Shown here in pieces: positions 4,993-41,517 of a DNA stretch of 64,000 nt; position 1 is the first letter of the stretch; each line of letters begins with the position of its first letter. The notes under the pieces were generated by a model. That model was not told where the DNA came from and searched no databases. It saw only the letters and a program-made list of their open reading frames with translations. The position numbers and the translations under genes were made by a program. Where the stretch lies: NCBI GenBank assembly GCA_946537305.1, contig CAMNFR010000003.1:1-64000 (forward strand), in the 5' to 3' direction. Origin of the DNA: an uncultured Lachnospiraceae bacterium (GTDB taxonomy: Bacteria; Bacillota; Clostridia; Lachnospirales; Lachnospiraceae).

Positions 4993-5042
4993 GAGGAAGG
5001 AAATTATCGGCCGGGAATATTACGTGTTCCCGGCCGAAAATG
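4993..5042 (+). promoter_or_regulatory. SD and perfect 10-bp hairpin upstream of the sugar transferase start
   Basis: A strong SD, GAGGAAGG (4993-5000), lies 39 bases from ATG 5040, too far for normal initiation. Between them CGGCCGGGAA (5008-5017) and TTCCCGGCCG (5027-5036) pair perfectly around a 9-base loop. If the hairpin is skipped, the effective SD-to-start spacing is 10 bases. There is no T-run after it, so it is not a standard terminator. Confidence 0.6.
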
Positions 5043-6443
5043 CGATTAGTTATCATGCAGAAAAGAGAAAAATACAAGCGTCTGGTGCGTTTTTTTCTGT
5101 CCCTTCTGAACGTCGCTGTATTAACGGGGATTTATGCCTGGTTCTGGTTCCACTACTACCATGACCGGAGCATCATCGGAACCCTGTACTTTAAGTGGGG
5201 GCACTACGCAATCCTGGTGCTGTATGGCTTTTTGATCTTCTTCTTTGGACAGGTCTACGGTGCCATGAAGGTGGGATATCTGCGCGTGATGGATATTCTG
5301 TTTTCGCAGTTCATTGCCGTGTTCTTTGTCAATGCAATTACTTATATTCAGCTGGCGCTGATCGGTCACTGGACCTTTGGACAGCATCTTATGCCCCTTG
5401 TGTGGATGACCGCATTTGATGCCGTGGCCGTGGCCATGTGGGCCCTCTTTGCGCGTTGGTTCTATTCTGTGATCTATCCGCCCAGAGAGATCCTGGTGAT
5501 CTATGGGGACCGGAGCCCGGCCAGTATTATTGCCAAGTTCTCTACGCGGCGTGATAAGTATCGTATCCGGGAGACTGCCTGTATAGAGACGGAAACGGAT
5601 GAGGAAATATTCCGGAAGATCGATCGCTACCGCGCGGTGGTCATCGGGGATATCCCGGCTCAGCGGCGCAACGATTTCCTGAAATATTGCTTCCGCAATA
5701 ATGTGCGCTGCTATACCGTGCCGAAAATATCCGATATTATGCTGAAAAGCTCGGAGACTATCAATCTGTTCGATACAGCGCTGCAGCTGTGCCGGAACCG
5801 AGGTCTCTCTGCGGAGCAGCAGGCGTTGAAGCGGTTCTTTGATGTTTTGGTTTCTCTGGCGATGCTGATCGTGCTGAGCCCGCTGATGATCTTGATCGCT
5901 ATTTTGATCTATTTATATGACAGAGGACCGGTCTTTTATCTGCAGGAACGGCTGACAGAGGACGGCCGGGTATTTATGATCTACAAGTTTCGGAGCATGC
6001 GGGTAGATTCCGAGGAAAAAGGCGCCCGGCTGGCGGCCAAGGGCGATCCGCGCATTACCCCGGTGGGAAAGGTGATCCGGAATCTTCACCTGGATGAGCT
6101 GCCGCAGCTCATTAATATTTTGAAGGGCGACATGTCCATGGTGGGGCCTCGACCGGAACGGCCGGAAATTGCCGAGAAATATCATAAGGTCATTCCGGAA
6201 TTTGATTATCGACTGAAGGTGAAGGCGGGTCTGACCGGCTATGCACAGGTGTACGGCAAGTACAACACCACGCCTTATGACAAATTGAAGCTGGATCTTT
6301 ATTATATCGAAAACTATTCGATATGGATGGACATTAAATTATGTATGTTGACCTTCAAGATCCTCTTCCAGAAGGAAAATACCGAAGGCGTGGATCCGAG
6401 CCAGCGGACAGCAGCTGACCCTAAACGCAAAAGCATTTACTAG
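5040..6443 (+). CDS. Polyprenyl-phosphate sugar-phosphate transferase (WbaP/EpsL-type initiator)
   Basis: The protein has 467 residues. The N-terminal ~120 residues form several membrane helices, followed by a CoA-binding-like or Rossmann-like cytoplasmic linker. The C-terminal ~200 residues are the bacterial sugar transferase domain, with KRFFDVLVSLAMLIVLSPLM, YKFRSMR, LDELPQLINIL and GDMSMVGPRPE. Such enzymes start glycopolymer synthesis by moving a sugar-1-phosphate from a nucleotide sugar to undecaprenyl phosphate at the inner face of the membrane. The substrate cannot be told from sequence. ATG 5040 is used; ATG 5055 is the alternative. A second, shorter initiator lies at 21372. Confidence 0.92.
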   Translation: MRLVIMQKREKYKRLVRFFLSLLNVAVLTGIYAWFWFHYYHDRSIIGTLYFKWGHYAILVLYGFLIFFFGQVYGAMKVGYLRVMDILFSQFIAVFFVNAITYIQLALIGHWTFGQHLMPLVWMTAFDAVAVAMWALFARWFYSVIYPPREILVIYGDRSPASIIAKFSTRRDKYRIRETACIETETDEEIFRKIDRYRAVVIGDIPAQRRNDFLKYCFRNNVRCYTVPKISDIMLKSSETINLFDTALQLCRNRGLSAEQQALKRFFDVLVSLAMLIVLSPLMILIAILIYLYDRGPVFYLQERLTEDGRVFMIYKFRSMRVDSEEKGARLAAKGDPRITPVGKVIRNLHLDELPQLINILKGDMSMVGPRPERPEIAEKYHKVIPEFDYRLKVKAGLTGYAQVYGKYNTTPYDKLKLDLYYIENYSIWMDIKLCMLTFKILFQKENTEGVDPSQRTAADPKRKSIY

Positions 6444-10915: not shown

Positions 10916-12025
10916 ATGTATGATTTTCTGATTGTCGGCGCCGGACTGTACGGCGCAGTCTTTGCCTGCGAGGCAAAGAAAAAAGGATATTCTGTGCTGG
11001 TGATCGATAAAAGACCCCAGATTGCCGGGAACGTCTACACCAAAACGGTGGAGGGCATCCACATGCATCAGTATGGGGCGCATATTTTCCATACCAACAA
11101 CAAGAGAGTATGGAACTACATCACCCAGTATGCGGAATTCAATCGGTTTACCAATTCTCCTGTGGCTAATTACAAAGGAGAGCTGTATTCGCTTCCTTTT
11201 AATATGTATACCTTCAACAAAATGTGGGGCGTGACCACGCCGGAGCAGGCCGCGGCGAAGATCGCGGAGCAGAAGGCAGAAATCACCGGAGAGCCGCAGA
11301 ACCTGGAAGAACAGGCTATCTCTCTGGTGGGGCGCGATATTTTCGAAAAACTGGTGAAGGGCTACACGGAAAAACAGTGGGGCCGGGACTGCAAGGATCT
11401 TCCCGCCTTTATTATTAAGCGGCTGCCTGTGCGCCTGACTTTTGACAATAACTACTTTAATGCACTGTACCAGGGGATTCCCGTGGGTGGGTACACAAAA
11501 ATGGTGGAAAACCTGCTGGATGGCGTGGAAGTACAGTTAAATACGGACTATCTGGAGCACAAGGACAAGTGGGACGCCCTGGCAAAGAAGGTAATCTACA
11601 CCGGTCCGATCGATGCCTATTTCGGCTTCTCCCTGGGTACGCTGGAGTATCGCTCCGTGCGGTTTGAGACGGAGCTTCTGGATATCCCCAACTTCCAGGG
11701 CAACGCGGCTGTCAATTATACGGACCGGGAGACACCCTGGACGCGTATCATAGAACACAAGTGGTTTCAGTTTGGCTTGGACGACGAGGGATTTGCACTG
11801 CCGAAGACGGTGATCTCTCGCGAGTACAGTTCCGAGTGGAAACCCGGGGATGAGCCTTACTATCCTGTAAACGATGAAAAGAACGGACAGCTTTACCAGG
11901 AGTACCGTTATCTGGCTAATAAGGAAGAGAAGGTCATCTTTGGTGGACGATTGGGCGAATATCGGTATTATGATATGGATGCGGTCATCGCTTCCGCGCT
12001 GGATATGTGCGGAAGAATACTGTAA
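10916..12025 (+). CDS. glf: UDP-galactopyranose mutase
   Basis: The protein has 369 residues, the usual bacterial Glf length. The FAD-binding start MYDFLIVGAGLYGAVFA is followed by the family signature GIHMHQYGAHIFHTNN and SLPFNMYTFNKMWG. Further Glf motifs are YTEKQWGRDCKDLPAFIIKRLPVR, DNNYF, and the C-terminal FGGRLGEYRYYDMDAVIASAL. It interconverts UDP-galactopyranose and UDP-galactofuranose in the cytoplasm, so the polymer probably contains Galf. It sits 27 bases after the UDPGP gene and 13 bases before the GT61 gene. Confidence 0.96.
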   Translation: MYDFLIVGAGLYGAVFACEAKKKGYSVLVIDKRPQIAGNVYTKTVEGIHMHQYGAHIFHTNNKRVWNYITQYAEFNRFTNSPVANYKGELYSLPFNMYTFNKMWGVTTPEQAAAKIAEQKAEITGEPQNLEEQAISLVGRDIFEKLVKGYTEKQWGRDCKDLPAFIIKRLPVRLTFDNNYFNALYQGIPVGGYTKMVENLLDGVEVQLNTDYLEHKDKWDALAKKVIYTGPIDAYFGFSLGTLEYRSVRFETELLDIPNFQGNAAVNYTDRETPWTRIIEHKWFQFGLDDEGFALPKTVISREYSSEWKPGDEPYYPVNDEKNGQLYQEYRYLANKEEKVIFGGRLGEYRYYDMDAVIASALDMCGRIL

Positions 12026-12038
12026 GTGAGGAAGCTTC

Positions 12039-14708
12039 ATGAGTGCTGTTGATTATGAATACTTCGGATATTGTCCGAAAGAATGGGAAGAAGCCCTGGA
12101 GCAAACAGCTGTACTGAAGGATCATGAGGCTGGAATCATTGAAATTGATGGGGGGACAATTTTGCCGCTTCGACGTATACCGGGAACGGTCGAAGATTTT
12201 GGCGATGGTGTGTTTGAGGGTGGTCTGATCGATTTTGAAGGGAAGTTCATTGCAGGTCAGTTTCGATCCATGGAGGCACCGTACAGCAATCGAAGCATTG
12301 CGCAAGGCTATGAGATCCCCGATGATGTGATTGTACACGAGCGGGAAGAAACCGTCATTTTTGGCGGAATGCTGGTGAGCCACTGGGGACACATGCTGGT
12401 AGATGCAACATCCCGTCTTTGGTATCCGGTTATGCATCCGGAAAATCACACAAAAATAGTATTCGTTCGCTTCCCGGGACAGAGATTTCCCTATCAGGAA
12501 TTGCTCTCCTTAGCGGGAATAGAGGAAAGCCGGGTGGAGATCATCGATGAGCCGACTCGGTTCCGCAAAGTCATCGTGCCGGAGGAGACGATTCATTCAT
12601 TGTCAGGGCACTATGGGAAAGAGTGGATATCCTTTTTTGATGCAGTCCGCAAGGCTGTAAGACCGGCTCCTTATAAAAAAATCTATCTTACCCGCACTGC
12701 ATTTATGATTAATAATGTATGCGGCGAGCAATATTTTGAGGATTTCTACGCTGCTCAGGGTTATCACGTGGTAGCGCCGGAAAAGTACACTATTACGGAG
12801 CAGGTGGCTATGATTGCCGGTGCCGATGAGCTTGTGACTACAATGGGGACGATATCACACATGGTACTTTTTGCCCGCCCCGGTACTCATCTGACCATTC
12901 TGAACCGATCTCATGAGATCGTAAGAGTTCAGCTGACGATGAACGAAGCCCGAGGGATCAGATGCACTTACGTAGATGCTTACCGCAATTTTCTTCCGTC
13001 CGTACAGGGAGGGAACAGCATTTTTCTGCTTGCACCGAATAAACACTGGCGGGAGTATAAACAAGCTGTCTTTGGGCTACTCTCGGATGAAAAAGAAGAC
13101 GAGGAGGTCTTTGGCCGAGCAGCAGTAGATTATATAAAAAAATGGGGACGTTTCTTTGGCGAGAAGAAACACTATAAGTGGATTCGGAACTGTGAAGTTA
13201 AGGATCTGGTGGCGGAGATTAACCGAACTTTCTTAGGAAAGAGAGTGGATACCAGTAAATATCTTCCTACACAAACGTTGGAAAATACACGTAAGGAGCT
13301 GCAGCAGTGTGAATTGAATGCCGGTTGTGCTATTCTGGCATGCTTGCTGGAAGAAGCGGAGGGAGAACTGCTGATTGAAGGCAAATGGAGTCGGCCGTTA
13401 TGTCCACCGGATGGACTAACCTTTTGCGCGTGGGCAGAACAATACTGTCCTGCAAAACAGTCGTTGCCTGCAGAAAAGAATCAATTTCCGCTGAAAATTA
13501 AGGCGGTATATAATGTAGAGTGTGGGTACTATTCCTGGCAAATCAGAACAGATCTGCAGACCTTCTGCCGGAATGCGGAAACTGTTAATACGTATAGAAT
13601 AATAGTTTCTGTAAGTAATCCGAGGGGACAATTGGTTATGCCGGTTATTTTCCCCACACATGAAAATTACTTGCTGAAGAATGGATTTAAGAGGCAATAT
13701 TTCAGTGACGACAAACTGCTGGGTTTACAGACGTCTGAAAAGAACGAATTGATGTTCATATTCGAGACAGCAGACGAAGCATTGAGGAATTCAGCGTCTG
13801 TGTCTGTGCAGGAACTATGCTGGGAAAAAGACTTTCTTCATATAGAAGGCCTGATAGATTCTGTACTGCTGAATGCCCCGGACTTTACTATTGCTGGAGA
13901 ATTGCGGGCAGCGAGTGGAAAAGAAGTGTCAACGCTATCTGTTCCATTAGTTCTCCAGGGGAAAATGCTAAGTGACCGGGTGAAGCAATGGGGTGTTTCT
14001 CTGAATGCTGCACAGATTCTGCAGTGTAGCGGCAAGAACGACAGCCTGCGATGGGATCTGTTCCTTTCGCTTCAATGGAATGGGGCAGAACAAGCCGTAC
14101 ATTTGGGGCTTCGGGAAGATATTGCGCTCAGAGAGCGTTTTACAAACTATTTCCTTTCCGAAGAGAGTGGTATGTTGGTGCCCGGGTTTCATACACAAGG
14201 GAAAATGAGTCTATACTTCCTTAAAAAAAATGCGGCTGTTTCCCGCTTCTGGATAGAGAACCTCGTCTGGGTTGATTCCGAGTTGCAAATGAGCGGTACT
14301 ATTCGATGGAAGCTACCGGAAATAGCAGGGGAAATGGACTTCTTGTTGAAAAAAAGTGACAATGTGGTAATATATGAGCAACCGTTGCGACTCCATCCGT
14401 TAGCAGGAAAGGAACAGCTGTGGGAGTTGGCGATTCCGATGGCTGAACTGGTAAAATTCGTACAAGAATCCGAGAATCCGCAGGGAACGTATTCATTTTT
14501 TGTTCGTACGGCCATAGGGGACAGTCTCGTGGAATGGCCGGTGGGAAATAAAAGGAAGCCTGGAAGTCTGGCACACTTTAAGCAACTACCAGATTCTTTA
14601 AGGGAGAAAGGGTTTTCTGCCGATACTATTGGCAAAGAGGAATACTTGGGAATCCGGGTTGAAAAAAAAGCACCTGCACCTAAGTCTTTCTGGAGGCGGC
14701 TGTGGTGA
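12039..14708 (+). CDS. GT61 (DUF563-type) glycosyltransferase with long unknown C-terminal part
   Basis: The 889-residue protein starts after a good SD (GAGGAAG). Residues ~60-340 match the GT61/DUF563 pattern: GGMLVSHWGHMLVDATSRLW, KIYLTRTAFMINNVCGE, FEDFYAAQGYHVVAPEKYT and ADELVTTMGTISHMVLFARPG. Family members are nucleotide-sugar-dependent glycosyltransferases. Residues ~430-880 contain no motif I recognise; they look like two or more beta-rich domains rather than a second catalytic unit. Usual GT61 proteins are 350-500 residues, so this one is about twice as long. From here the sequence becomes AT-richer than the upstream genes. Confidence 0.75.
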   Translation: MSAVDYEYFGYCPKEWEEALEQTAVLKDHEAGIIEIDGGTILPLRRIPGTVEDFGDGVFEGGLIDFEGKFIAGQFRSMEAPYSNRSIAQGYEIPDDVIVHEREETVIFGGMLVSHWGHMLVDATSRLWYPVMHPENHTKIVFVRFPGQRFPYQELLSLAGIEESRVEIIDEPTRFRKVIVPEETIHSLSGHYGKEWISFFDAVRKAVRPAPYKKIYLTRTAFMINNVCGEQYFEDFYAAQGYHVVAPEKYTITEQVAMIAGADELVTTMGTISHMVLFARPGTHLTILNRSHEIVRVQLTMNEARGIRCTYVDAYRNFLPSVQGGNSIFLLAPNKHWREYKQAVFGLLSDEKEDEEVFGRAAVDYIKKWGRFFGEKKHYKWIRNCEVKDLVAEINRTFLGKRVDTSKYLPTQTLENTRKELQQCELNAGCAILACLLEEAEGELLIEGKWSRPLCPPDGLTFCAWAEQYCPAKQSLPAEKNQFPLKIKAVYNVECGYYSWQIRTDLQTFCRNAETVNTYRIIVSVSNPRGQLVMPVIFPTHENYLLKNGFKRQYFSDDKLLGLQTSEKNELMFIFETADEALRNSASVSVQELCWEKDFLHIEGLIDSVLLNAPDFTIAGELRAASGKEVSTLSVPLVLQGKMLSDRVKQWGVSLNAAQILQCSGKNDSLRWDLFLSLQWNGAEQAVHLGLREDIALRERFTNYFLSEESGMLVPGFHTQGKMSLYFLKKNAAVSRFWIENLVWVDSELQMSGTIRWKLPEIAGEMDFLLKKSDNVVIYEQPLRLHPLAGKEQLWELAIPMAELVKFVQESENPQGTYSFFVRTAIGDSLVEWPVGNKRKPGSLAHFKQLPDSLREKGFSADTIGKEEYLGIRVEKKAPAPKSFWRRLW

Positions 14709-14773: not shown

Positions 14774-17700
14774 ATGCGACTGAAAGAGAACAAAAAACAT
14801 AATAGAGATTTGTTTTCTATGATATCCATGCTGTATCTGCCTCTGGTCTTTTTGCAGACTCTATTATATATGTACCATTGTGCAGGCAATGCGGTATATA
14901 TCTTCATGTCTCAGGAAAGAGCCAGGCATATTTGGTATGCAGGCATTTTAGTATTTTCTACCCCGAGTGTTGCAATGGCGGGGAAACGTTTTCTGCTATG
15001 GCTTGGCCAAGGAGGAGAACGCAGGTTAACTGCACGTAATACACTATTGGTAATCGGTATCGCAACATCGCATTTGTCTACAATTGGAGCGTGGCATAGG
15101 GGGGCGATTTCTCTAAAAGAGCTGTTGCTGTTGGTTATGTATGATTTGGTGCTGATAGCGACGCTGGAGAATTGGACGGCGAACCGAGAGGGGGTTTATC
15201 GCGGAATTGAGATTTTAGCAGTATTGCTGTGGTTAACTGCAGTATATGGAATAGTAGAACATTTTATATACGGGGAAATTCCTTTTCTTTACTCAGAAGC
15301 CGAAAATAGTGGTCGAATTATTTCTGTTTTCAGAAATACAATTGTTGCCGGCAGTGCTTGGTTGATAGGATTCTGGTTGCCATTTCCCACCGAAAAAAAA
15401 TGGCTGCAGTGGGCGGTCAAACTTACTTTTGTTCTTGCTATTTTTTTTACGATCAGCAAGAATGCCTGGCTGGGTCTGGCTTTTTCTCTGCTAGTATATA
15501 CATTGTTCTCCTTTAGAAATTGGGATAAAAAAATTGTTTTGACAGGATTGTTAATGGGCCTTGTCGGAGGAGTGGCAGCTATTGCAATTTTGTTGAAAAG
15601 CGAATATTTTCAGTTCATTGTTCGCCGCTTTGCTGACTTTCAGACACAGGGGTCGGTTTTGGCACGCCTGCAGCATATTCAGGACACCTGGAAATACATG
15701 ACGCAGGAAACAGATTTTTTTCATCAGCTGATTGGGTGGGGATATGCCACATCCTGGGAATTTGTAGAGAATTCGCCACATTGTTATGGACCGACCTTTC
15801 GATGCATAGATAACCAGTATTTTACGTCCTGGTTTGAATTCGGGCTGATTTCTGTTGTATGCTTATTTCTCTGGGGAGAAAAGGTGGTTTCCCAGATCCG
15901 GTCGGATAACAAATATATACAAGGATTGGCCATCAGCGTCACGGCCATGCTGATTCCGATGGCAACATATGATCCGTTTCGTTGGGAGATTGTAATGATC
16001 TTCCTTATTCCAATGTCCGGAATTGTGATGAGTGAAAAGCCGCTGATGATACGCCGGGAGGTTATGTGCGGAGCTTGTGTGGCGGGGGCGGTATTGATTT
16101 CGGAAGCTACACAGGCGCCGGTGATTATACGGGTTGTAAGAACGACGGCTCAGTTTATGGCGGAGAGTCATGGTTGGGATGCGTTACTGACAGAAGGAGT
16201 ATTGTGGAGCGGCGTAATTATTTGTACTTTGGGATTGATGATTTGCTGTTTCCGAATGGGGGTCACTCTAAAAAAGCACAACTTAACGAATCCCCAAGAG
16301 CTTGTTTTTTTGATAAGAAAACTGTGGATTGTTAGTGGCATAAGTGCTACATTGGTTGTTATTTGCCACATAGAAGTTTTAAAGGCAGAGAAAAAATATG
16401 CACCGCTTCTTGAAAAAGAGCGGGAGGTTATGGAAATTTTAAGGGATTCTGCAAACGGTAAAATTTGTGTCGACCAATATCCGGAATTATACCAAAGAAA
16501 ATTTGGTCATATTAGCGGAGAGATTTTTCGGGGCGATGGAGTGATCCGTGCGGATGAGACGACTGTTATTAGTGAATCGGGTAAAGAAAACAGGCGGCTG
16601 CTTAACCAAGGCTTTCTGTTTTTGGAAATGTCTGAAGCGCATGTGCTTTATACAGATGATACACATTTAATAGAAGCGCTGCAAAATGCAGGATACCATT
16701 TAACAGGTTACTATAATGTGGCGCGATGGTTGAAACTGGCTGATGGGCATACCGAAGAAAAAATGTGGAAAGGAGAGATATCTCTTTATAACGGTAATTA
16801 TTCGGCAAATGTTACTTTCGGTGATAATAATTATAGCACAGAGAATACTAAAGTTTATTTGACAATATGGGATAAAACTCATGATCAATTAAGTGCGAGC
16901 GGCGAACTGACTTTTGACGAGAGCGTGGATCATACAATTGAGTTTTCTGTCTCGGACGATATGGGATATGCTACTGTTTTGAATGTTGAAAGTAATTATC
17001 CTGTGGAAATTGAAATCAAACAGCTTGTAGAGTATGATGTTCATAACACCTTTGACTATACGGATCGTTTAACAAAGGTGGAGTACTATACTACAGATGG
17101 TATCAAAACGTTAGGGCCGGAGAAGTGTTTCGCAGAGAGATATTCATATAATAAGCGTTCTGACCGAGTTGTTATTGAGTATTTGGATGAAAATGATCAG
17201 CTAACCATATCCAGGATGGGATGTGCCGTAAGAAAAAGAAAGTATGATAGATATCATAGGTTCATTAAAGAGAAATATTATGGTACTGATGGAGAAAAAG
17301 TGGCACTGGCATCCGGCGAGTATGGTGTTAAAGTGAAATATAATGATAAAGGATTATATGCACAAACAACGTATTTAGGAAAAGATGACAGCCCCGTTCT
17401 TTCTTCGTTAGGTTATGCACAAATCAGATTTTTCTATGATGAGTGGGACCGTGTAATACGTGAAGAATTCTATGATGAAGATCTTAAACCGTTAAAAACA
17501 GTGGAGAAACCGGCGGCGCAGGAATATGAGAGAGATCTTGACGGGCGTGTAGTCGAAAAACACTTGTATGCAGCAGACGGAGAATCCTTTGTAACCCCAG
17601 AAGGATGGTCAGCAGTTAAATATCACTATTCTGACAGTGATACATGGGACTTGGCCACATATTTTGATGCAGATGACAAACAGGTATTATTATCGTGGGG

Positions 17701-17980
17701 ATATAGTTCAGAAGAAAGGGTTTTCGATTCGGTTGGAAATCTGCTGGAGGAAAGATTTCTGGATATTGATGGCAACCTGTGTATGACTGCTATAGGCTAT
17801 GCTTGTGTGAAAAGAAGTTATGATGAAAATGCAAGAATTGTTTTAGAATCATACTGGGATGAAAAGATGGAGCCGGTCAACAATTTGGAAGGTTTTCATG
17901 AATTACACTTTCAATATGATACAGATGGTACTCTTAAGGAATCGGTCAAAATGACTGTTGAAGGAACCGTTATTCCCTAA
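14774..17980 (+). CDS. O-antigen ligase/polymerase-like membrane protein fused to nine 32-residue YD-like repeats
   Basis: The protein has 1068 residues. About 12 hydrophobic segments fill residues ~15-430, with a further pair near ~465 and ~520. The organisation, including KNAWLGLAFSLLVYTLF and the large loop before QYFTSWFEFGLISVV, fits Wzy/WaaL-type enzymes. These act on lipid-linked glycans at the outer membrane face. Residues ~530-764 are soluble and unrecognised. Residues 765-1052 are nine consecutive units of exactly 32 residues, resembling RHS/YD repeats (consensus around GYaxxxxxYDexgRv). Whether it polymerises or ligates is not decidable. A second Wzy-like protein lies at 30007. Confidence 0.72.
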   Translation: MRLKENKKHNRDLFSMISMLYLPLVFLQTLLYMYHCAGNAVYIFMSQERARHIWYAGILVFSTPSVAMAGKRFLLWLGQGGERRLTARNTLLVIGIATSHLSTIGAWHRGAISLKELLLLVMYDLVLIATLENWTANREGVYRGIEILAVLLWLTAVYGIVEHFIYGEIPFLYSEAENSGRIISVFRNTIVAGSAWLIGFWLPFPTEKKWLQWAVKLTFVLAIFFTISKNAWLGLAFSLLVYTLFSFRNWDKKIVLTGLLMGLVGGVAAIAILLKSEYFQFIVRRFADFQTQGSVLARLQHIQDTWKYMTQETDFFHQLIGWGYATSWEFVENSPHCYGPTFRCIDNQYFTSWFEFGLISVVCLFLWGEKVVSQIRSDNKYIQGLAISVTAMLIPMATYDPFRWEIVMIFLIPMSGIVMSEKPLMIRREVMCGACVAGAVLISEATQAPVIIRVVRTTAQFMAESHGWDALLTEGVLWSGVIICTLGLMICCFRMGVTLKKHNLTNPQELVFLIRKLWIVSGISATLVVICHIEVLKAEKKYAPLLEKEREVMEILRDSANGKICVDQYPELYQRKFGHISGEIFRGDGVIRADETTVISESGKENRRLLNQGFLFLEMSEAHVLYTDDTHLIEALQNAGYHLTGYYNVARWLKLADGHTEEKMWKGEISLYNGNYSANVTFGDNNYSTENTKVYLTIWDKTHDQLSASGELTFDESVDHTIEFSVSDDMGYATVLNVESNYPVEIEIKQLVEYDVHNTFDYTDRLTKVEYYTTDGIKTLGPEKCFAERYSYNKRSDRVVIEYLDENDQLTISRMGCAVRKRKYDRYHRFIKEKYYGTDGEKVALASGEYGVKVKYNDKGLYAQTTYLGKDDSPVLSSLGYAQIRFFYDEWDRVIREEFYDEDLKPLKTVEKPAAQEYERDLDGRVVEKHLYAADGESFVTPEGWSAVKYHYSDSDTWDLATYFDADDKQVLLSWGYSSEERVFDSVGNLLEERFLDIDGNLCMTAIGYACVKRSYDENARIVLESYWDEKMEPVNNLEGFHELHFQYDTDGTLKESVKMTVEGTVIP
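17066..17929 (+). repeat. Nine tandem 96-bp-period units encoding a 32-residue repeat
   Basis: Aligning the translation gives nine units of exactly 32 residues. Conserved points are an Arg or hydrophobic start, Tyr/Phe at 7-8, Asp-Gly-like turns at 11-12, Gly-Tyr near 20-21 and Tyr-Asp near 28-29. DNA identity between units is low, so the array is old and was probably maintained by selection on protein structure. Confidence 0.8.
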
Positions 17981-18002: not shown

Positions 18003-19964
18003 ATGGAAACGAAGAAAGAAAATCGATTTAAACCTGAACATTGGCAAGTAATAGCGATCTTACTGGTTATATATGATGTGGTAGCGGTAAACGCAGCATT
18101 TTTTATAGCACTTTGGTTTCGGTTTGACTGTGTTTTTTCCAACATACCGGCTAGATTTTTGAATCCATGGATCCAATTCATTCCTTTTAATACGATTATT
18201 TGTATTTTGGTTTTCTGGCGGATGAAATTGTATAATAGTGTTTGGCGTTATGCCAGCTATGCGGAGATGATTCGTATTATCGGGGCATCTGCGATTACTA
18301 TTGTGCTACATGCGATTTTAATTACGATCAGTCTGGGAACTATGCCCAGATCATATTTTGCGTTCGGAGGATTGCTTGAGTGTGTGCTAGTAGTTCTTAT
18401 TCGGTTCTCTTATCGTTTGGTTTTGTTCCTAAAACTAAACAGAAATGAAAAGAATTCTGTTAATCGAGTTATGCTGATCGGTGCGGGTGAAGCGGGTCAA
18501 ACTCTTTTGAGAGAACTTCGAGGAAGTAATAAGACACAGGACAGAGTTGTCTGCATAATAGATGACAATCCCAACAAGTGGAACAGATATATGGATAATG
18601 TTCCGGTTGTTGGTGGACGGGAAACAATTTTAAAGAACGTTGAAAAATATCGCGTCGATAAGATTTATCTGGCAATACCCAGTGCCTCGGCTGAACAAAG
18701 AAGAGATATATTGAGTATCTGCAATGAGACGCGTTGTGAATTGAAAAATTTGCCCGGCATGTATCAATTGATTCGAGGAGATATTACTGTCAATGAATTG
18801 AGAGATGTTTCAGTAGAAGACCTGCTGGGACGAGAACCCATATCAACAGATATGGAAGAGGTTTTTACATACATCAGTGGCAAGATAGTAATGGTTACTG
18901 GCGGGGGTGGGTCCATTGGCAGTGAGCTTTGCCGCCAGATTGCCAATCATGAACCTAAACAGCTGATCATTTTTGATATTTATGAAAACAGTGCTTATGA
19001 TATACAAAATGAACTGAAAGAAAAATATCCGGAACTAAATTTGGTTACATTAATAGGATCTGTTCGAGACAGCCGCAGGATGTTCCAGGTGTTTGAAGAG
19101 TATCATCCACAGATTGTTTATCACGCGGCTGCACACAAGCACGTTCCTCTTATGGAAGGTAGCCCCAATGAAGCCATAAAGAACAATACAATTGGAACAT
19201 ATAAAACAGCATATGCAGCAATGGTTCATGGATGTGAGCGATTTGTATTGATTTCCACTGACAAGGCTGTCAATCCGACAAATATAATGGGTGCAAGTAA
19301 ACGTTTATGCGAAATGGTTATACAGAGCTTTGATGCTAAAATCAAGGCAGGAAAGGCCAATGAACTACCACAGTTATTCACACATGTAGGTTTTGAGAAT
19401 GCTGACAAGGATGGCACAGGAAAGGTATTTCAGAGTGTAAAGACGGAATTTGTAGCAGTTCGATTTGGCAACGTGCTTGGGAGCAATGGGTCGGTTGTGC
19501 CGCTCTTTAAAAAAATGATTGAAAAGGGAGGACCAGTAAAGGTTACGCACCCGGATATTATTCGGTATTTCATGACTATTCCGGAAGCGGTTAGTCTGGT
19601 GCTGTTGGCAGGTACGTATGCTCATGGTGGCGAGATATTTGTTTTAGATATGGGCAGCCCGGTAAAAATAGATACTCTTGCCAGAAATTTGATCCGACTT
19701 TCGGGACTTCAACCGGATGTTGATATCAAAATTGAATATACAGGACTTCGTCCTGGAGAAAAACTCTATGAAGAAAAACTAATGGCAGAGGAAGGGCTTA
19801 AAAAGACGGATAATAAACTTATTCACATTGGATGTCCTATTCCGTTTGAAGTAGATGAATTCCTTGCCGGACTCCAGGATTTAATGCGGGCAGCCTATTC
19901 CAACAGAAAGGATATACGAGAAAAGGTAAAGCGGATGGTAGCGACCTATCATCCGGCACCGTAA
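18003..19964 (+). CDS. Membrane-anchored UDP-GlcNAc 4,6-dehydratase (PglF/WbpM/CapD type)
   Basis: The protein has 653 residues, typical of the long membrane-bound dehydratases. The N-terminal ~130 residues hold four membrane helices. A CoA-binding-like Rossmann domain follows (VMLIGAGEAGQTLLRELRG). The catalytic SDR domain starts at ~295 with MVTGGGGSIGSELCRQIANH. The active-site segment STDKAVNPTNIMGASKRLCE carries the Met-for-Tyr replacement characteristic of WbpM/PglF. It should convert UDP-GlcNAc to UDP-4-keto-6-deoxy-GlcNAc, feeding the aminotransferase immediately downstream. This fits a bacillosamine-like or 4-amino-4,6-dideoxy sugar. Confidence 0.9.
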   Translation: METKKENRFKPEHWQVIAILLVIYDVVAVNAAFFIALWFRFDCVFSNIPARFLNPWIQFIPFNTIICILVFWRMKLYNSVWRYASYAEMIRIIGASAITIVLHAILITISLGTMPRSYFAFGGLLECVLVVLIRFSYRLVLFLKLNRNEKNSVNRVMLIGAGEAGQTLLRELRGSNKTQDRVVCIIDDNPNKWNRYMDNVPVVGGRETILKNVEKYRVDKIYLAIPSASAEQRRDILSICNETRCELKNLPGMYQLIRGDITVNELRDVSVEDLLGREPISTDMEEVFTYISGKIVMVTGGGGSIGSELCRQIANHEPKQLIIFDIYENSAYDIQNELKEKYPELNLVTLIGSVRDSRRMFQVFEEYHPQIVYHAAAHKHVPLMEGSPNEAIKNNTIGTYKTAYAAMVHGCERFVLISTDKAVNPTNIMGASKRLCEMVIQSFDAKIKAGKANELPQLFTHVGFENADKDGTGKVFQSVKTEFVAVRFGNVLGSNGSVVPLFKKMIEKGGPVKVTHPDIIRYFMTIPEAVSLVLLAGTYAHGGEIFVLDMGSPVKIDTLARNLIRLSGLQPDVDIKIEYTGLRPGEKLYEEKLMAEEGLKKTDNKLIHIGCPIPFEVDEFLAGLQDLMRAAYSNRKDIREKVKRMVATYHPAP

Positions 19965-28798: not shown

Positions 28799-29998
28799 AT
28801 GAAGTATATTTTCTGCTCGTTCATGTTTGATGATGTTGAGGAAAATGTTAAAAATTCTAAGTCTCCAAATTCTGTTTCAGGACATAAATTTCAGATGAAT
28901 ATGTTGAACGGGCTGGCAGATAATGATTGCGATATAAGCGTAGTAAATGTCCCCAGAATAAGACGTTATCCGGATTACAAAAAGATATTGTTTAAAAGGA
29001 AAGCGTTCAAAACGAAATACAATCTGGAAGCTGTAAGCGTAGGATTTGTTAATATTCAGCTTATTAATTACATTACGCAGATTGTGGCGGTCTATGGTGA
29101 ACTGAAAAAGATAATCGCCAGATATCGTGATGAAAAGATAGTATTGATGGTTTATAACACTTACCCGGCTCCGATTATAGCGATGAGACGGATAAAAAAG
29201 AAGTATGACAATGTTATTATCTGTGATGTGATTGGGGATATTTACGGGAAATATGGATTGACGCCCGAAAAAACGCTGCATGGAAAGCTGCTGGATCTGG
29301 TTCATAAGAAAATGGATCAAATGTCATCAGAGTGTGATGTTTTTGCGCTTGCGACCGAAAATATGGCCGATGCTTTAAGGGTGACAGATAAACCTCATAT
29401 TGTTCTTGAAGGAATGTATGACGTAAAAAATGAAGTTTTGCCTCTGAAATCAGAAGATGGTAAAAAGAGAGTTTTTTACGCAGGGGCGCTTTGTGAAGAA
29501 TATGGCATTGGTCACATGCTTAGAGCGTTTGCTCTTATAAAAGATACGAATTACGAATTTTTGATCGCCGGCAGCGGCACTGCGGTAAAACAGGTGGAGA
29601 AAGCTTCTCGAAAAGATCCAAGGATACGCTTTCTTGGCTTCATTACGCCTAAAGAAGTTGAAACAATTCAGTCATCAGCAACGGTATTGGTTAATCCAAG
29701 AACATCTGAGCATGAGTATGTAAAGTATAGCTTTGCAAGCAAAAATTTAGAATGCCTTGCTTCGGGAATCCCGTACGTAGCACATAATCTTCCTTGCAAT
29801 CCAAAGGAATATGGTGAGTATGTTTTTTATCCGAAGGATGAATCAGATAAAGCTCTGGCAGAGACAATTCAATCGGTGTGTGAAATGGATACCGAAGAGC
29901 GGATTCGGAGAGGGGCCGATGCCAGAGAGTTTATAAAGCAAAATAAGAATCCCAAAGCTCAGATGTCAAGATTAGATGGATTATTGCGTTCTATGTGA
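28799..29998 (+). CDS. Glycosyltransferase, GT4/GT1 group
   Basis: The 399-residue protein has the GT-B donor-binding half, with RVFYAGALCEEYGIGHMLRA, FLIAGSGTAVKQVE, RFLGFITPKEVETIQSSA and LVNPRTSEHEYVKYSF followed by SKNLECLASGIPYVAHNLP. The glutamate-containing E-x7-E-like region near HEYVKYSFASKNLE matches retaining GT4 enzymes. The N-terminal half (FCSFMFDDVEENV) is less conserved, as usual for the acceptor side. It probably adds a sugar to the lipid-linked repeat unit in the cytoplasm. It starts two bases after the SDR stop codon, with GGGTGA as SD. Confidence 0.87.
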   Translation: MKYIFCSFMFDDVEENVKNSKSPNSVSGHKFQMNMLNGLADNDCDISVVNVPRIRRYPDYKKILFKRKAFKTKYNLEAVSVGFVNIQLINYITQIVAVYGELKKIIARYRDEKIVLMVYNTYPAPIIAMRRIKKKYDNVIICDVIGDIYGKYGLTPEKTLHGKLLDLVHKKMDQMSSECDVFALATENMADALRVTDKPHIVLEGMYDVKNEVLPLKSEDGKKRVFYAGALCEEYGIGHMLRAFALIKDTNYEFLIAGSGTAVKQVEKASRKDPRIRFLGFITPKEVETIQSSATVLVNPRTSEHEYVKYSFASKNLECLASGIPYVAHNLPCNPKEYGEYVFYPKDESDKALAETIQSVCEMDTEERIRRGADAREFIKQNKNPKAQMSRLDGLLRSM

Positions 29999-30006
29999 GG
30001 GAAACC

Positions 30007-31284
30007 ATGACAATTATCTTGAAGAAAAACAGGAAACATACATTAGTTTTTATCATATTAGCTTTTTACCTTATGTTCGCGCCGCCTATTTTTGGGATAC
30101 ATTCCCTGTACTTTGTTGCGGCTTTTTCATGGGTATATATTTTGGTTAATAATGGTGTTTTTTTTAGGATAATTGACCGTTATAATTTGGGCAAAATATA
30201 TGTGGGATTGCTGCTAATGTTTGTGTGGGCATCATTGGTGGTTTTTCTTAATGATGGGACAAGATCTGTGATGATTCACTACATATATTGGATGATTTCT
30301 ATTTTCCCGGGAGCAATAGCTATTGCTCTTCATGCAAAAAAGCATAACGAGTCGTTGGACTATGTTTTATCATTAGTATTATGGGCGGCTTTTGTACAAA
30401 GTCTGTTTTCGATTGCTGCATTTCTAAACAATGACATCAAATTATTCCTGATAGATAAGCTGCAGGCAGATGACACTCTCGTTATGGCAACGTACAAAAA
30501 TGAAATATATTATCGACTGTTTGGCTTTTCGTCAGGGCTGACGTTCGATATGCCGGCCGCCATGTCTGGTATTGCCTGCATTGCATTATACTTCGCAATA
30601 AATAAGAATATTTTGTACCTGCTTTTCATGCCGACCCTTGTTTTTTCGGCACTGATCAATGCCAGAACCAGTATCGTTGTGATAGGTATCGGCATAATTA
30701 CAATGTTCATTGCCAATAAATATGCAACAGGGAAAAGCGTCAAAAGAGTACTTTTTATATTTGTAGCGGCTGTCCTCGGTATAACAATTGGAATTATGGT
30801 ACTTCGCCAGGTATCACCGTTGACTTTTGGATGGGTAAAATCAGGGATTGGACAATTATTGGGCTTTGTTCGAGGAGATACAGATTCAGGGTACTTTGAA
30901 TATTTAACTGAAAATGGAAGATGGCAGTTACCGTCGGGTTTTTCGCTGCTCTTGGGAACGGGCAGTCGGATTATGGGCGGCGGTCAGTTAGATGCTTATT
31001 CGGATGTAGGATATATTAACGACATATGGTTTGGCGGGATCGCTTATATGACCGTTCTGTATCTTTTAGTTGTCAAAATGGTGTGGAAGCTGGGCCAGGA
31101 ATACAGTCGTAAATTAGACAGTTCTTTTTTGTTCTATTTTGCTCTGGTCTATATTATCAGCCTGCCGATATTGAATATAAAGACCTTCATTGTTTCAATT
31201 GGTGCATTCTCAACCTTGTTTATCATTGTGTACACGTATAGTGTATTGTTTAAGTGTGACGAGACAGAGGTGTTAGACGAATGA
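30007..31284 (+). CDS. Wzy-like O-antigen/capsule polymerase (membrane protein)
   Basis: ATG 30007, preceded by GAGGG, is more likely than the track's GTG 29995, which overlaps the previous stop; the product is 425 residues. About ten hydrophobic helices fill the sequence, including TLVFIILAFYLMFAPPIFG, with a large extracytoplasmic loop before FSLLLGTGSRIMGGGQLDAY. Topology, length and context, between a GT and a GT2 and just before the flippase, all fit a Wzy polymerase that joins repeat units at the outer membrane face. Sequence conservation in this family is low, so the call rests on topology and neighbours. The region is very AT-rich (15 of 60 G+C in line 30001). Confidence 0.75.
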   Translation: MTIILKKNRKHTLVFIILAFYLMFAPPIFGIHSLYFVAAFSWVYILVNNGVFFRIIDRYNLGKIYVGLLLMFVWASLVVFLNDGTRSVMIHYIYWMISIFPGAIAIALHAKKHNESLDYVLSLVLWAAFVQSLFSIAAFLNNDIKLFLIDKLQADDTLVMATYKNEIYYRLFGFSSGLTFDMPAAMSGIACIALYFAINKNILYLLFMPTLVFSALINARTSIVVIGIGIITMFIANKYATGKSVKRVLFIFVAAVLGITIGIMVLRQVSPLTFGWVKSGIGQLLGFVRGDTDSGYFEYLTENGRWQLPSGFSLLLGTGSRIMGGGQLDAYSDVGYINDIWFGGIAYMTVLYLLVVKMVWKLGQEYSRKLDSSFLFYFALVYIISLPILNIKTFIVSIGAFSTLFIIVYTYSVLFKCDETEVLDE

Positions 31285-32249
31285 AAGATTTAATATCAGT
31301 CATAATTCCGGTATATAATGTGGAGAACTATGTAGAAAAGTGCGTGGAGTCAGTGATTAACCAGACATGGGATAATCTTGAGATTATTCTGGTTGATGAT
31401 GGCTCCAAAGATTTAAGCGGCTTGCTTTGTGATAAACTGGCGGAAAAATATAAAAATGTACAAGTAATCCATCAGGAAAACAAAGGATTATCTGTTGCAA
31501 GAAACGTAGGGCTTGAAAAAAGCAAAGGGGAATGGATCGCATTCCTGGATAGCGATGACTGGATTGAGCCGGAGATGTATCAAATACTGCATGATACAGC
31601 AGTGAATAACAACACATTGATCAGCAGCTGCTTTTCAAGAGATATAATTGATGGAAAAGCGGCACATGTTGAAGAGGATGGAAGAGTAAAAATCCTGAAT
31701 CATAGAGATATCATAAATGGATTGTTATCGGGCAAGACGATGAGATTTGAAGTGTGGAATAAACTCTGGAACCGGGAATTGATTGGAGATGTTAGATTTG
31801 TCCCTGGACAAGTTGCTGAAGATGTACATTTCGATTCGGTTCTATTTGAATCAGCTGGTAAAATAGCACATGTCAACAAGGTGCTGCATAACTACTTGAT
31901 CACCAGACCGGGGAATACCAATTCATCCTTTAAAGTGGCCAGATTATGCATTTTTGGCGAATTCAGGAATTGGAAGACAAAGTTGGAAGGTGATGGAGAA
32001 AAGGAACTTGCGCGAGTTATTTCGGCAATAGCAGCAAATTTTGCCGTAGATATTTTTTCCAATGCTGTCCGCAGTCATCAAGAAAATACAATAAAAAAGG
32101 AGTTGATAGAACAGTTTAGATATTTTTATCCGTATACATCCGGAGTTCAGATGTTAACTAAGAGGATGTTTATTAAGAGGAGATTTAAACTCACTGCTTT
32201 TCATATCAGTCCGTCATTATGGATCTTGATTGAAAACCTGGTAAGGTGA
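31281..32249 (+). CDS. Glycosyltransferase family 2
   Basis: The 322-residue protein begins with ISVIIPVYNVENYVEKCVES, followed by IILVDDGSKDLSG, NKGLSVARNVGLE and the metal-binding FLDSDDWIEPEMY, the full GT2 (GT-A) signature. The second half has the common FEVWNKLWNRELI and EDVHFDSVLFE segments of capsule-type GT2 enzymes. It likely adds one sugar of the repeat unit. Start and stop overlap both neighbours (ATGA with the polymerase, and a few bases with the flippase reading frame), so translation is probably coupled. Confidence 0.93.
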   Translation: MKDLISVIIPVYNVENYVEKCVESVINQTWDNLEIILVDDGSKDLSGLLCDKLAEKYKNVQVIHQENKGLSVARNVGLEKSKGEWIAFLDSDDWIEPEMYQILHDTAVNNNTLISSCFSRDIIDGKAAHVEEDGRVKILNHRDIINGLLSGKTMRFEVWNKLWNRELIGDVRFVPGQVAEDVHFDSVLFESAGKIAHVNKVLHNYLITRPGNTNSSFKVARLCIFGEFRNWKTKLEGDGEKELARVISAIAANFAVDIFSNAVRSHQENTIKKELIEQFRYFYPYTSGVQMLTKRMFIKRRFKLTAFHISPSLWILIENLVR

Positions 32250-32254
32250 TGAGT

Positions 32255-33703
32255 ATGAAAGCACTTTCGATATTAATTCAAAAAATCCCTTTTCAAGCAC
32301 GTGCATCAGCAGTGATTTTGATATCGAGTTTTATTACCAGCGCTTTTGGCTTCCTTACAACACCTGTTTTTACGAGACTAATGTCTGTGGAAGAGTTTGG
32401 CCTTGTAACACAGTATAACTCTGTGTTAGAAGTCGTGACAGTTGTTGCCACCCTTTCTTTATCAGCAGGTGTTTATCAGGTCGCGATGAATGAGTTTTCA
32501 AGTGATAGAGATACCTTTACGTTCTCTAGTATGATTCTCTCAAACTTGGCTACTATCGTAGTGTTTGCAATAATTTTTGTTTTAAGAGAGAGAGTTATAA
32601 ATATCATCAAACTTACTCCTGATCTGATTTTTTGTATGTTTTTGTATTTGCTGATTTACCCTGCAATGCAGATGTGGATGGCTAAACAAAGATATGAGTA
32701 TAAATATAAGACAGTGGCTGCTGTTTCCATTTTTTCTGTTGCGTTTAATCTCGGAACTGCCGTTGTCTGTGTGATTGTTGCGAAAAACGTAAATTTGGGA
32801 GCTGTAAAGATATGGTCAATGTCATTGACACAGATTGTTACTGCGCTGGTAGTCTATTACTTCCTTGGCAAAAATGCGCGATGGAAAATTGATTGGAGAT
32901 ATATCAAGTATGCATTTGCCTTTAATGCTCCGCTCCTGATTCACTATTTGGCGCAATATGTTCTCCGCTCCAGTGATAAAATGATGATTACTTATTTTTG
33001 CGGGGAAAGAGCGACAGGGTTATATGGGCTTGGAAGTACTGTTGCAAGCATAGCTTTGATGGCGTGGAGTGCAATGGCGGCATCGCTTACGCCATACATG
33101 TATTCGCATATAAATACAAAAGAATATGACAAAGTAAACAGGGCAGTTATCGCAGTAGTAGGTATTTTTGGTGTTTGCTGTATTGGCGTGGCGTTAGTTG
33201 GACCGGAGATTGTCTATATACTTGGTTCCCAAAAATATATGGAGAATATACAGCTGATCCCGCCAATTGCTGCTTCCAGTTTGCTGGCAGCGATTTATGG
33301 TATCTATTCTACCATTGTTTTTTATCATCATAAGAGAACATCTACTGCGATCATGACAATTATAGCGGCTGGTATCAACATTATATTAAATTATATCCTT
33401 ATACCTAAGTATGGATATATAGCGGCGGCATATACTACTGAAATCGCGTATCTAATCTATACGTTCCTACATTACGCCAATTATCGAAGGATTGTAGGCG
33501 AGGAGAGAGTTTTTAATGATAAAATCATTTGGGCAATTACAGGAATTACTACGATATCCTGTTTATGTGTCGGAATGTTTTATGATAAGTGGATTATAAG
33601 ATATGGCCTTGTATTGATGGCGTTTATCGTGATAGTGTGTTTGCGTACAAGGATTTTAGCGATTGTAAAAGTATTGATCGGAGGAAGAGAGACGAATGAA
33701 TAG
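32255..33703 (+). CDS. Wzx-type oligosaccharide flippase
   Basis: ATG 32255 has AAGG eight bases upstream; the track's 32246 GTG overlaps the previous stop. The 482-residue product is almost entirely hydrophobic, with ~12-14 helices. The N-terminal FITSAFGFLTTPVFTRLMSVEEFGLVTQYNS pattern is typical of the polysaccharide transporter (PST/MATE-like) family. It should flip undecaprenyl-linked repeat units across the membrane for the Wzy-like enzyme. It is the only flippase in the window, while the downstream block has its own ABC exporter (TagGH). Confidence 0.92.
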   Translation: MKALSILIQKIPFQARASAVILISSFITSAFGFLTTPVFTRLMSVEEFGLVTQYNSVLEVVTVVATLSLSAGVYQVAMNEFSSDRDTFTFSSMILSNLATIVVFAIIFVLRERVINIIKLTPDLIFCMFLYLLIYPAMQMWMAKQRYEYKYKTVAAVSIFSVAFNLGTAVVCVIVAKNVNLGAVKIWSMSLTQIVTALVVYYFLGKNARWKIDWRYIKYAFAFNAPLLIHYLAQYVLRSSDKMMITYFCGERATGLYGLGSTVASIALMAWSAMAASLTPYMYSHINTKEYDKVNRAVIAVVGIFGVCCIGVALVGPEIVYILGSQKYMENIQLIPPIAASSLLAAIYGIYSTIVFYHHKRTSTAIMTIIAAGINIILNYILIPKYGYIAAAYTTEIAYLIYTFLHYANYRRIVGEERVFNDKIIWAITGITTISCLCVGMFYDKWIIRYGLVLMAFIVIVCLRTRILAIVKVLIGGRETNE

Positions 33704-39893: not shown

Positions 39894-41372
39894 ATGAGCA
39901 AAAGAGGAGATACATATAGAGGAACGGATTTTATGATAGATCTTTCTGACCTGCTGGCGCAGCTCTTCTACAACTGGAAGTGGATTCTTGTGGTGGGAGT
40001 AATAGGTATGGCTGCAGGGATGGGATGTTATTTATTTGCATCCCAGAATCAGGGCGCTAAGAAGATTTCACAGGAAGATATTGAGGCGGCACGCGCTTTG
40101 CTTCCAGAGGATGCGGCATCCAATGTAGAGCAACTGCATATTCAATACGAATCTTATATTGCCTACCGAAAAGAACTACAATCATATTTGTCAGATTCGT
40201 TATATAAAAAGGAGGATTTTGCCGGAAATGTTGGGCTTACCTCTATTTATTATGTAAATTCAGTTGTTTCGGGCTATAATTTGGTTTTGGCACAGGTGGC
40301 ATTAGGCACCAGTGAGTACGAGAAAATAGCAGAAATTCTTAACAAAGATATCTCCACAATGGATGATGTATATCGAAGAGTCAGTGTCGGAGAAGTGGTA
40401 CGTACGAAAGAAAATGGTGTGTCGCTATCGGATGTGAATGTAAATCTTGAGGAGGCCGAAGCTAAAGAAAAGAAAACGATGCTCCTTCAAGTGGATATTG
40501 TGGCGGAAAATCAAGAACAGGCCAATGCAGTGCTGGAGGTTGTTGAAGAAGCCTTATCCAGACAAATACAGTCTTTGCAGGAGATTGACCCTGAAGCGGG
40601 GATGAAAAATCTGGGGAAAACATTTACCACTGACGTATCTGAATTTTTGGACAAAAGGCAGAACAATGCTGTCAACTATTTAAATACAGTGAATAATCAG
40701 ATAGCAGAGTTGCAATCACGTTATGTAGAGCCACTGGAATCAGACGAAAAAAGTTATTACAATTTGTTGAAAAAATATTCTGAACAGGACACAATGCCGA
40801 TTAAAGAAAAGTCTCTTTTACTGTTTTTGCTCATTGGAGCAATTCTGGGAGTAGTTCTTTCAGGCGCGTTTATGGTGCTTAGATATATTTTCGACGGAAC
40901 CGTAAAGAGCGGCAACGAATTGGCATATATTTCGGGTGATAGTTATTTAGATACATTATATCGAAAAAAGAGAGGATTCCATTTATTTGGTGGAATCTCA
41001 CGGCTGCTAATGGGAGCGCTCGTTGAAGAAGAATCTCATCAAATCAATATGCTGGAGGTAGATCTTGAAATAAAAGTAAAAAAGATGGGCTGTCATTCAG
41101 TATATATGGTGTGTGAAAAAAATAATGACTGGGGAAATGATATCGGAACAAAAGTCCAGAAAGGTCTGCAGCATAATAACTCAAATTTAACCTTACAAAT
41201 AGGAGATCCGTTGGAAGATTCCGAGGATCGTGAGGTTTTCTCGCAGGCGGAAGCGGTGGTTTTGCTTGTTCGATTAAAAAAGACCTCCCGCAGGGAGATG
41301 TTAACATGGATTAAACTTTGCCAGAGATATGGGCTGCAGGTTGCTGGTATTGTGGCACTAGATGAATGTTGA
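39894..41372 (+). CDS. Wzz-like chain-length regulator with a degenerate BY-kinase-like domain
   Basis: The 492-residue protein has two membrane helices: WILVVGVIGMAAGMGCYLFA near 35-55 and LLLFLLIGAILGVVLSGAF near 305-325. Between them is an extracytoplasmic, helix-rich segment, the Wzz/CapA layout. After the second helix, residues ~370-492 look like the CpsD/CapB tyrosine kinase fold (SQAEAVVLLVRLKKTSRREM; AGIVALDEC), but no Walker A glycine-rich loop is visible. A normal kinase role is therefore unlikely. It probably influences polymer length or export. A GAGGAG SD precedes ATG 39894. The 196 bases before the gene hold no recognisable feature. Confidence 0.75.
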   Translation: MSKRGDTYRGTDFMIDLSDLLAQLFYNWKWILVVGVIGMAAGMGCYLFASQNQGAKKISQEDIEAARALLPEDAASNVEQLHIQYESYIAYRKELQSYLSDSLYKKEDFAGNVGLTSIYYVNSVVSGYNLVLAQVALGTSEYEKIAEILNKDISTMDDVYRRVSVGEVVRTKENGVSLSDVNVNLEEAEAKEKKTMLLQVDIVAENQEQANAVLEVVEEALSRQIQSLQEIDPEAGMKNLGKTFTTDVSEFLDKRQNNAVNYLNTVNNQIAELQSRYVEPLESDEKSYYNLLKKYSEQDTMPIKEKSLLLFLLIGAILGVVLSGAFMVLRYIFDGTVKSGNELAYISGDSYLDTLYRKKRGFHLFGGISRLLMGALVEEESHQINMLEVDLEIKVKKMGCHSVYMVCEKNNDWGNDIGTKVQKGLQHNNSNLTLQIGDPLEDSEDREVFSQAEAVVLLVRLKKTSRREMLTWIKLCQRYGLQVAGIVALDEC

Positions 41373-41490: not shown

Positions 41491-41517
41491 TCGTTGTGTA
41501 ATAAGGAGTTCAAATCT

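Follow-up and report, generated by a model that had tools for sequence, protein, structure and literature searches.

Two motifs have been defined for Wzy polymerases, GN1 (R-X(11-24)-G-X-G) and GN2 (HN-X9-G-X(2-4)-G), the second of which is not universal among them (PMC12502699). The way in which these enzymes retain and extend their product on the outer side of the membrane is an open question, in part owing to loops that are small and difficult to study. The nearest published idea concerns the VanZ proteins: VanZ is believed to work on lipid-linked glycan precursors, and VanZ proteins with outside ligand-binding domains are proposed to be ligand-regulated (PMC12419801).

The gene described here lies in a window of 64,000 nucleotides, the whole stretch of DNA that was analyzed, and encodes a 1068-aa protein in which a Wzy-type membrane core is followed by an alpha/beta domain, a CBM-like beta-sandwich and nine RHS/YD-like repeats (Table 1). 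Computation shows this order of domains and their folds, places the module outside the cell, and finds the design repeatedly on Wzy-type cores and in polysaccharide loci.

Table 1. Positions of the gene, its parts and its neighbors in the window.
Feature	Position	Strand	Evidence or remark
Initiating sugar-phosphate transferase (Bac_transf)	5040..6443	+	PF02397 6e-68
UDP-galactopyranose mutase (GLF)	10916..12025	+	PF03275 4.5e-81
Glycosyltransferase 61 protein, 65 bases upstream of the gene	12039..14708	+	PF04577 9.5e-12
Whole gene: Wzy-type polymerase, extracytoplasmic alpha/beta domain, beta-sandwich, nine RHS/YD-like repeats	14774..17980	+	intact ORF, 1068 aa
Polytopic membrane core, residues 1-535	14774..16378	+	hydropathy, positive-inside count
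Wzy_C (PF04932) match, residues 217-364	15422..15865	+	E=3e-12, 47 bits vs curated cut-off 31.7
GN1 motif R298-X22-GWG, large outside loop	15665..15742	+	motif definition PMC12502699
GN2-like motif D346-N347-X9-G357	15809..15844	+	Asp replaces His of HN-X9-G; PMC12502699
Alpha/beta domain, about residues 563-640, first part of conserved linker	16460..16693	+	model md57868ca0f24, pLDDT mostly above 87; homologs
CBM-like beta-sandwich, about residues 664-760	16763..17053	+	model; Foldseek to CBM29/4/6/16/22
Nine 32-residue RHS/YD-like units, residues 781-1068, 96 bases each	17114..17977	+	self-similarity, repeat HMM, model
Nucleotide-sugar dehydratase (Polysacc_synt_2), starts 22 bases downstream	18003..19964	+	PF02719 5.8e-114
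Second Wzy-like multi-pass protein, 429 aa, 11 segments	29995..31284	+	no Pfam match
Wzx-type flippase	32246..33703	+	PF13440 5.1e-17
Wzz-like chain-length regulator	39894..41372	+	PF02706 5.7e-4, below its cut-off; two flanking TM segments

Membrane core and surrounding locus

Hydropathy alone defines the topology of the protein. It gives the core 12 clear, possibly 14, membrane segments, and the positive-inside pattern is consistent with this arrangement. The core thereby has the 10-14 TM segments and the large outside loop (residues 273-353) expected of a Wzy protein. The Wzy_C domain scores above its curated cut-off (3e-12), which bears out the first-pass annotation of a Wzy/WaaL-like multi-pass protein. 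GN1 is present as R298-X22-GWG. The full GN2 motif is absent from the core, which reads DN-X9-G and lacks the second G; an Asp form also occurs in L030, L033, L034, L078 and L079. The closest core relative is L030, a core-only Wzy (1e-18).

The gene sits within a continuous co-directional polysaccharide locus, in an assembly that is 83% complete. Initiating transferases, UDP-galactopyranose mutase, several glycosyltransferases, LicD proteins, a flippase and a Wzz-like protein make up this locus. It also holds a YkuD L,D-transpeptidase with several fn3-like domains (7262-9487). The window further encodes two domain-fusion enzymes, one joining an epimerase to a Polysacc_synt_C domain (36873-38108), the other a nucleotidyltransferase-aminotransferase (41494-43326). 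The second Wzy-like protein is encoded beside the flippase, and the locus may make two polymers.

The protein is probably a membrane enzyme with which this gut bacterium links sugar units into a surface polysaccharide. A Wzy_C score above the cut-off, the presence of GN1, the Asp form of GN2 and the polysaccharide locus all support a polymerase. The counterpoint is the second Wzy-like protein, in view of which the 1068-aa protein could serve another step. A rival reading is a WaaL-like ligase that would hand completed chains over to an acceptor, either wall or protein, recognized by the module; polymerization would then fall to the 29995-31284 protein. PF04932 does span both Wzy and WaaL, and a second Wzy-like protein is at hand, but the histidine of the HN pair in the Wzy_C domain, by which a WaaL-type ligase is recognized, is Asp346 here, and the pair reads DN in L030 as well. 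Homologs of the module moreover include Wzx fusions, a better fit to a repeat-unit polymerase, and lipid A is not known from the host family. We regard the ligase as very unlikely.

Linker domains and repeat array

In a model built from a 24-row alignment (pLDDT 83.9, pTM 0.83), the last membrane helix is followed by an adjoining alpha/beta domain and then by the beta-sandwich. The soluble region of ~230 residues noted at first is thus present, but it consists of two folded domains that are common to other polymerase-like proteins. The top solved match of the sandwich is CBM29 (1gwk, Foldseek 6.6e-5, probability 1.00, modest TM), with further matches to CBM4, 6, 16 and 22 and to a lectin domain. 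TNF ligands and seipin match it as well, TM-scores being about 0.25-0.45, and the sandwich has no sequence match to CBMs. Since sandwich folds are generic, the CBM-like match is a lead for sugar binding, not proof of it.

The first-pass annotation of nine units of exactly 32 residues is confirmed by two approaches. Array self-similarity (BLOSUM62) is +0.19, +0.59, +0.55 and +0.67 at shifts of 32, 64, 96 and 128, respectively, against a shuffled mean of ~-0.94, and 0/5000 shuffles reach any of the four values. A repeat HMM made from 130 units of other proteins, none from the 1068-aa protein, finds nine units at residues 787-1054 at a score of 108.6 bits (2e-33); among 500 shuffles the highest score is 8.7 bits. 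Conserved unit positions are G4 (7/9), Y12 (7/9), D13 (6/9), Y/F23 (7/9) and D27 (6/9). Neighboring units are 9-25% identical, a divergence which argues for an old and maintained array and not for a recent expansion.

Structural modeling from a 14-row alignment gives each unit two strands in an open sheet, with pLDDT mostly above 85. Sequence searches against solved structures gave no useful match. The top solved structures by Foldseek are Rhs proteins (8qja, 9.3e-14; 7q97, 1.2e-13), followed by Tc BC complexes and teneurin and then by an engineered OspA single-layer sheet. The global TM of the array to RHS structures is at most about 0.3. With 18 strands and such low global TM-scores, the array is predicted to form an open ribbon rather than a cocoon; it runs to the C-terminus, and the core-associated domain of a closed RHS cocoon is absent. 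The suggested likeness to shell-forming proteins is therefore not retained.

The label 'YD-like' holds only by way of relatives. The protein's own repeats have no match to Pfam RHS_repeat (PF05593) at E<=1 and miss the YD model TIGR01643 (E=0.4, 11.3 bits vs 15.8). The repeats of L027, L028, L011 and L078, however, align with them and pass PF05593, so that RHS/YD membership is reached through intermediates and agrees with the fold.

Outside location and related arrays

The charge pattern and the architecture of homologs support a position of the array outside the cell, as first proposed; a cytoplasmic placement, which would have spoken against that proposal, was not borne out. Homologous arrays occur in secreted proteins, in TIR-TM-repeat proteins and in TM-repeat-VanZ proteins.

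Several of these proteins have uncommon layouts. L028:8258-11761 and L032:7568-11776 encode a TIR domain, one TM helix and about 21 RHS-like repeats, a layout that resembles a receptor whose repeats face outward and whose TIR end signals. L029:5700-6920, L031:8534-9934 and L035:16102-17181 encode a signal anchor, 3-7 RHS-like repeats and a VanZ domain. In a polysaccharide locus, L027:8832-11216 encodes 17 repeats as the C-terminal part of a DUF6056-like membrane protein. The second repeat protein of the source genome (L010:2894-4684) is secreted; its frame is cut by the contig end, and its gene directly follows one for a CpsC/CpsD-like fused kinase.

Homologs and distribution

A search with a profile of residues 520-770, whose few rows make its E-values approximate, revealed the linker in other proteins. 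With each place taken once, 24 non-redundant proteins carry it on polymerase-like cores; 16 of these bear 2-22 repeats and eight have none. A scan of one genome per species places the core-plus-linker family at 32 loci. Three sizes can be distinguished: core-only Wzy-like proteins of ~400 aa in Coprococcus, Blautia, lactobacilli, Enterococcus and others; core plus linker of ~750 aa; and core, linker and repeats of 732-1928 aa, with the repeats always behind the linker. Thus L033, L034 and L081 (755-762 aa) carry the linker region on a Wzy-like core without repeats, and L078, L079 and L080 (Butyrivibrio, 1173-1384 aa) add 14-16 repeats. The CBM-like sandwich is conserved in 24/24 homologs, with or without repeats. 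For 15 genes with repeats, most recognized neighbors encode glycosyltransferases or sugar-nucleotide enzymes.

Linker-bearing forms, with repeats or without, are found almost only in Lachnospiraceae and close kin. The linker occurs in 14/79 Butyrivibrio genomes and in 5/397 genomes sampled across the family, the source genome and one weak match included; among 196 class-level genomes only the source genome and one weak match have it. In a survey of 200 family genomes, the 1068-aa frame is the only one longer than 950 aa among the Wzy_C matches listed. Frames of 902 and 925 aa owe their length to extra membrane segments only, and the other long Wzy_C frames inspected in that survey have extra membrane segments or short tails and no repeats. 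Whole-protein scans of viral and genome contigs with the 1068-aa sequence returned nothing useful.

An assembly or reading artefact was rejected, the domain order being repeated in 15 other loci. Uniqueness to the source genome was likewise rejected, since the architecture recurs in relatives, as was commonness among Wzy_C proteins generally on the evidence of the 200 family genomes. No account of a Wzy protein bearing YD repeats, or of a fusion between Wzx and Wzy, came up in the open-access literature searched. The possibility raised at the outset, that the architecture is common and already characterized, is thus true only of its recurrence in relatives; the design is rare and apparently undescribed.

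The linker of the 1068-aa protein matches those of other Wzy-like proteins at BLAST E-values of 1e-8 to 1e-19 (L078-type up to 9e-19), whereas BLAST finds no alignment between its core and the L078-type cores. Profile comparison joins both core types through a third group of cores, L141, L146, L150 and L152 (2e-6 and 1.2e-7), and one member of this group, L152, with 12 repeats, passes Wzy_C at 32.9 bits. In view of these links, the firm view that unrelated cores had each received the module by grafting was dropped. As far as sequence can tell, the module is a companion of Wzy-type cores in general, and fast core divergence with some swapping is equally possible as grafting of the module onto cores. 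On a tree of the linkers, only two changes account for which proteins have repeats, where shuffled labels require 6.8; this is close to one gain and one loss.

Two proteins, L085:4483-10170 (1896 aa) and L086:4471-10254 (1928 aa), from Lachnospiraceae MA2020 and MC2017, combine a Wzx flippase (PF01943, 1.5e-25 and 5.5e-27), a Wzy-like core, the linker and 21-22 repeats in a single ORF, possibly the most unusual form of the family. Another polymerase-like protein, L147:6233-9433, has a duplicated core (24 hydrophobic segments) and the linker, without repeats.

The spread in repeat number raises the idea of a ruler or processivity device in which array length sets the modal polymer length, and the first-pass annotation had suggested that the repeats could measure the chain. 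The number varies from 2 to 22 on a period fixed at 32, and a unit would span about 1 nm if strands stack at 4.8 Å. Yet eight of the 24 homologs manage without repeats, and at five loci (L085, L086, L146, L148, L095), four with repeats and one without, a Wzz-type regulator is encoded no more than about 3.5 kb away. The window, too, contains a Wzz-like gene. Measuring is not upheld, and we hold a ruler to be highly improbable.

Proposed function

We consider it rather likely that the protein is a polymerase of the Wzy type and carries its own outside module for binding the nascent chain or wall glycan. The polymerase would take undecaprenyl-linked repeat units as its substrates on the membrane's outer face. 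Its accessory module would comprise the alpha/beta domain at the membrane, the CBM-like sandwich and the open RHS/YD-type beta ribbon, of which the latter two would most likely bind the nascent polymer or neighboring wall glycan. A growing chain bound in this way would stay near the active site and be led away from the membrane. Wzx is fused in front in two species, which ties the core to repeat-unit export and polymerization, and the CBM-like sandwich suggests the proposed sugar-binding role. Its placement between core and repeats also lends indirect support to the earlier idea that the repeat domain may hold the chain. Polymerase activity, glycan binding and any effect on processivity or anchoring are what we infer from the computed features.

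Glycan binding has a counterpoint, in that the sandwich matches are generic and RHS repeats also form protein-protein surfaces. The module could instead bind peptidoglycan, the S-layer or a partner such as Wzz or a wall-attachment enzyme and so anchor or position the polymerase, leaving the nascent chain untouched; the ribbon would then serve for spacing or docking. Proteins bind well to sheets of the RHS/YD kind and to single-layer sheets like that of OspA, and the array is acidic (net charge -19). Secreted repeat-only proteins exist, one of them encoded beside the CpsCD-like kinase gene of the source genome, and the repeats occur on TIR-TM proteins without an evident polysaccharide role. The retention of the CBM-like sandwich in every one of the 24 homologs nevertheless favors sugar over protein as the main ligand, and such anchoring, although possible, seems to us unlikely.

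If the polymerase with a glycan-binding module is taken further, some Lachnospiraceae would have one-polypeptide assembly lines of flippase, polymerase, sugar-binding domain and stalk, in which the stalk handles the nascent chain and the number of units tunes processivity or chain length independently of Wzz; this extension is speculative and improbable. The natural series from no repeats through 2 to 22, together with the Wzx-Wzy single chains, offers soluble, expressible outside domains, and the length series makes chain holding and length control directly testable. The analysis also draws attention to a group of Wzy relatives from gut and rumen bacteria that carry no annotation.

Comparison with known systems

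With Wzy-type polymerases (PF04932) the protein shares the multi-pass core, the large outside loop, GN1 and the polysaccharide locus. Unlike them, it has Asp for His in GN2, without the second Gly, and about 530 extra outside residues. Its repeats resemble RHS/YD repeats (PF05593, TIGR01643; Rhs effectors, Tc BC complexes, teneurins) in having two strands per unit, the YD...G spacing and the best fold matches, but they fail both models, keep an exact 32-residue period over nine units, and form an open ribbon without closed cocoon, core-associated domain or C-terminal cargo. Residues 664-760 are predicted to share the beta-sandwich fold of carbohydrate-binding modules (CBM29, 4, 6, 16, 22), although here the sandwich lacks a sequence match and is fused to a polymerase, not to a glycoside hydrolase.

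VanZ (lipocone) proteins likewise join a membrane domain thought to act on lipid carriers to outside binding modules (PMC12419801). Their catalytic part, however, is VanZ and not Wzy, and the text consulted describes MORN and other modules, with no Wzy fusion among them (PMC12419801). The TM-repeat-VanZ proteins of the same bacterial family use the same repeats as the 1068-aa protein.
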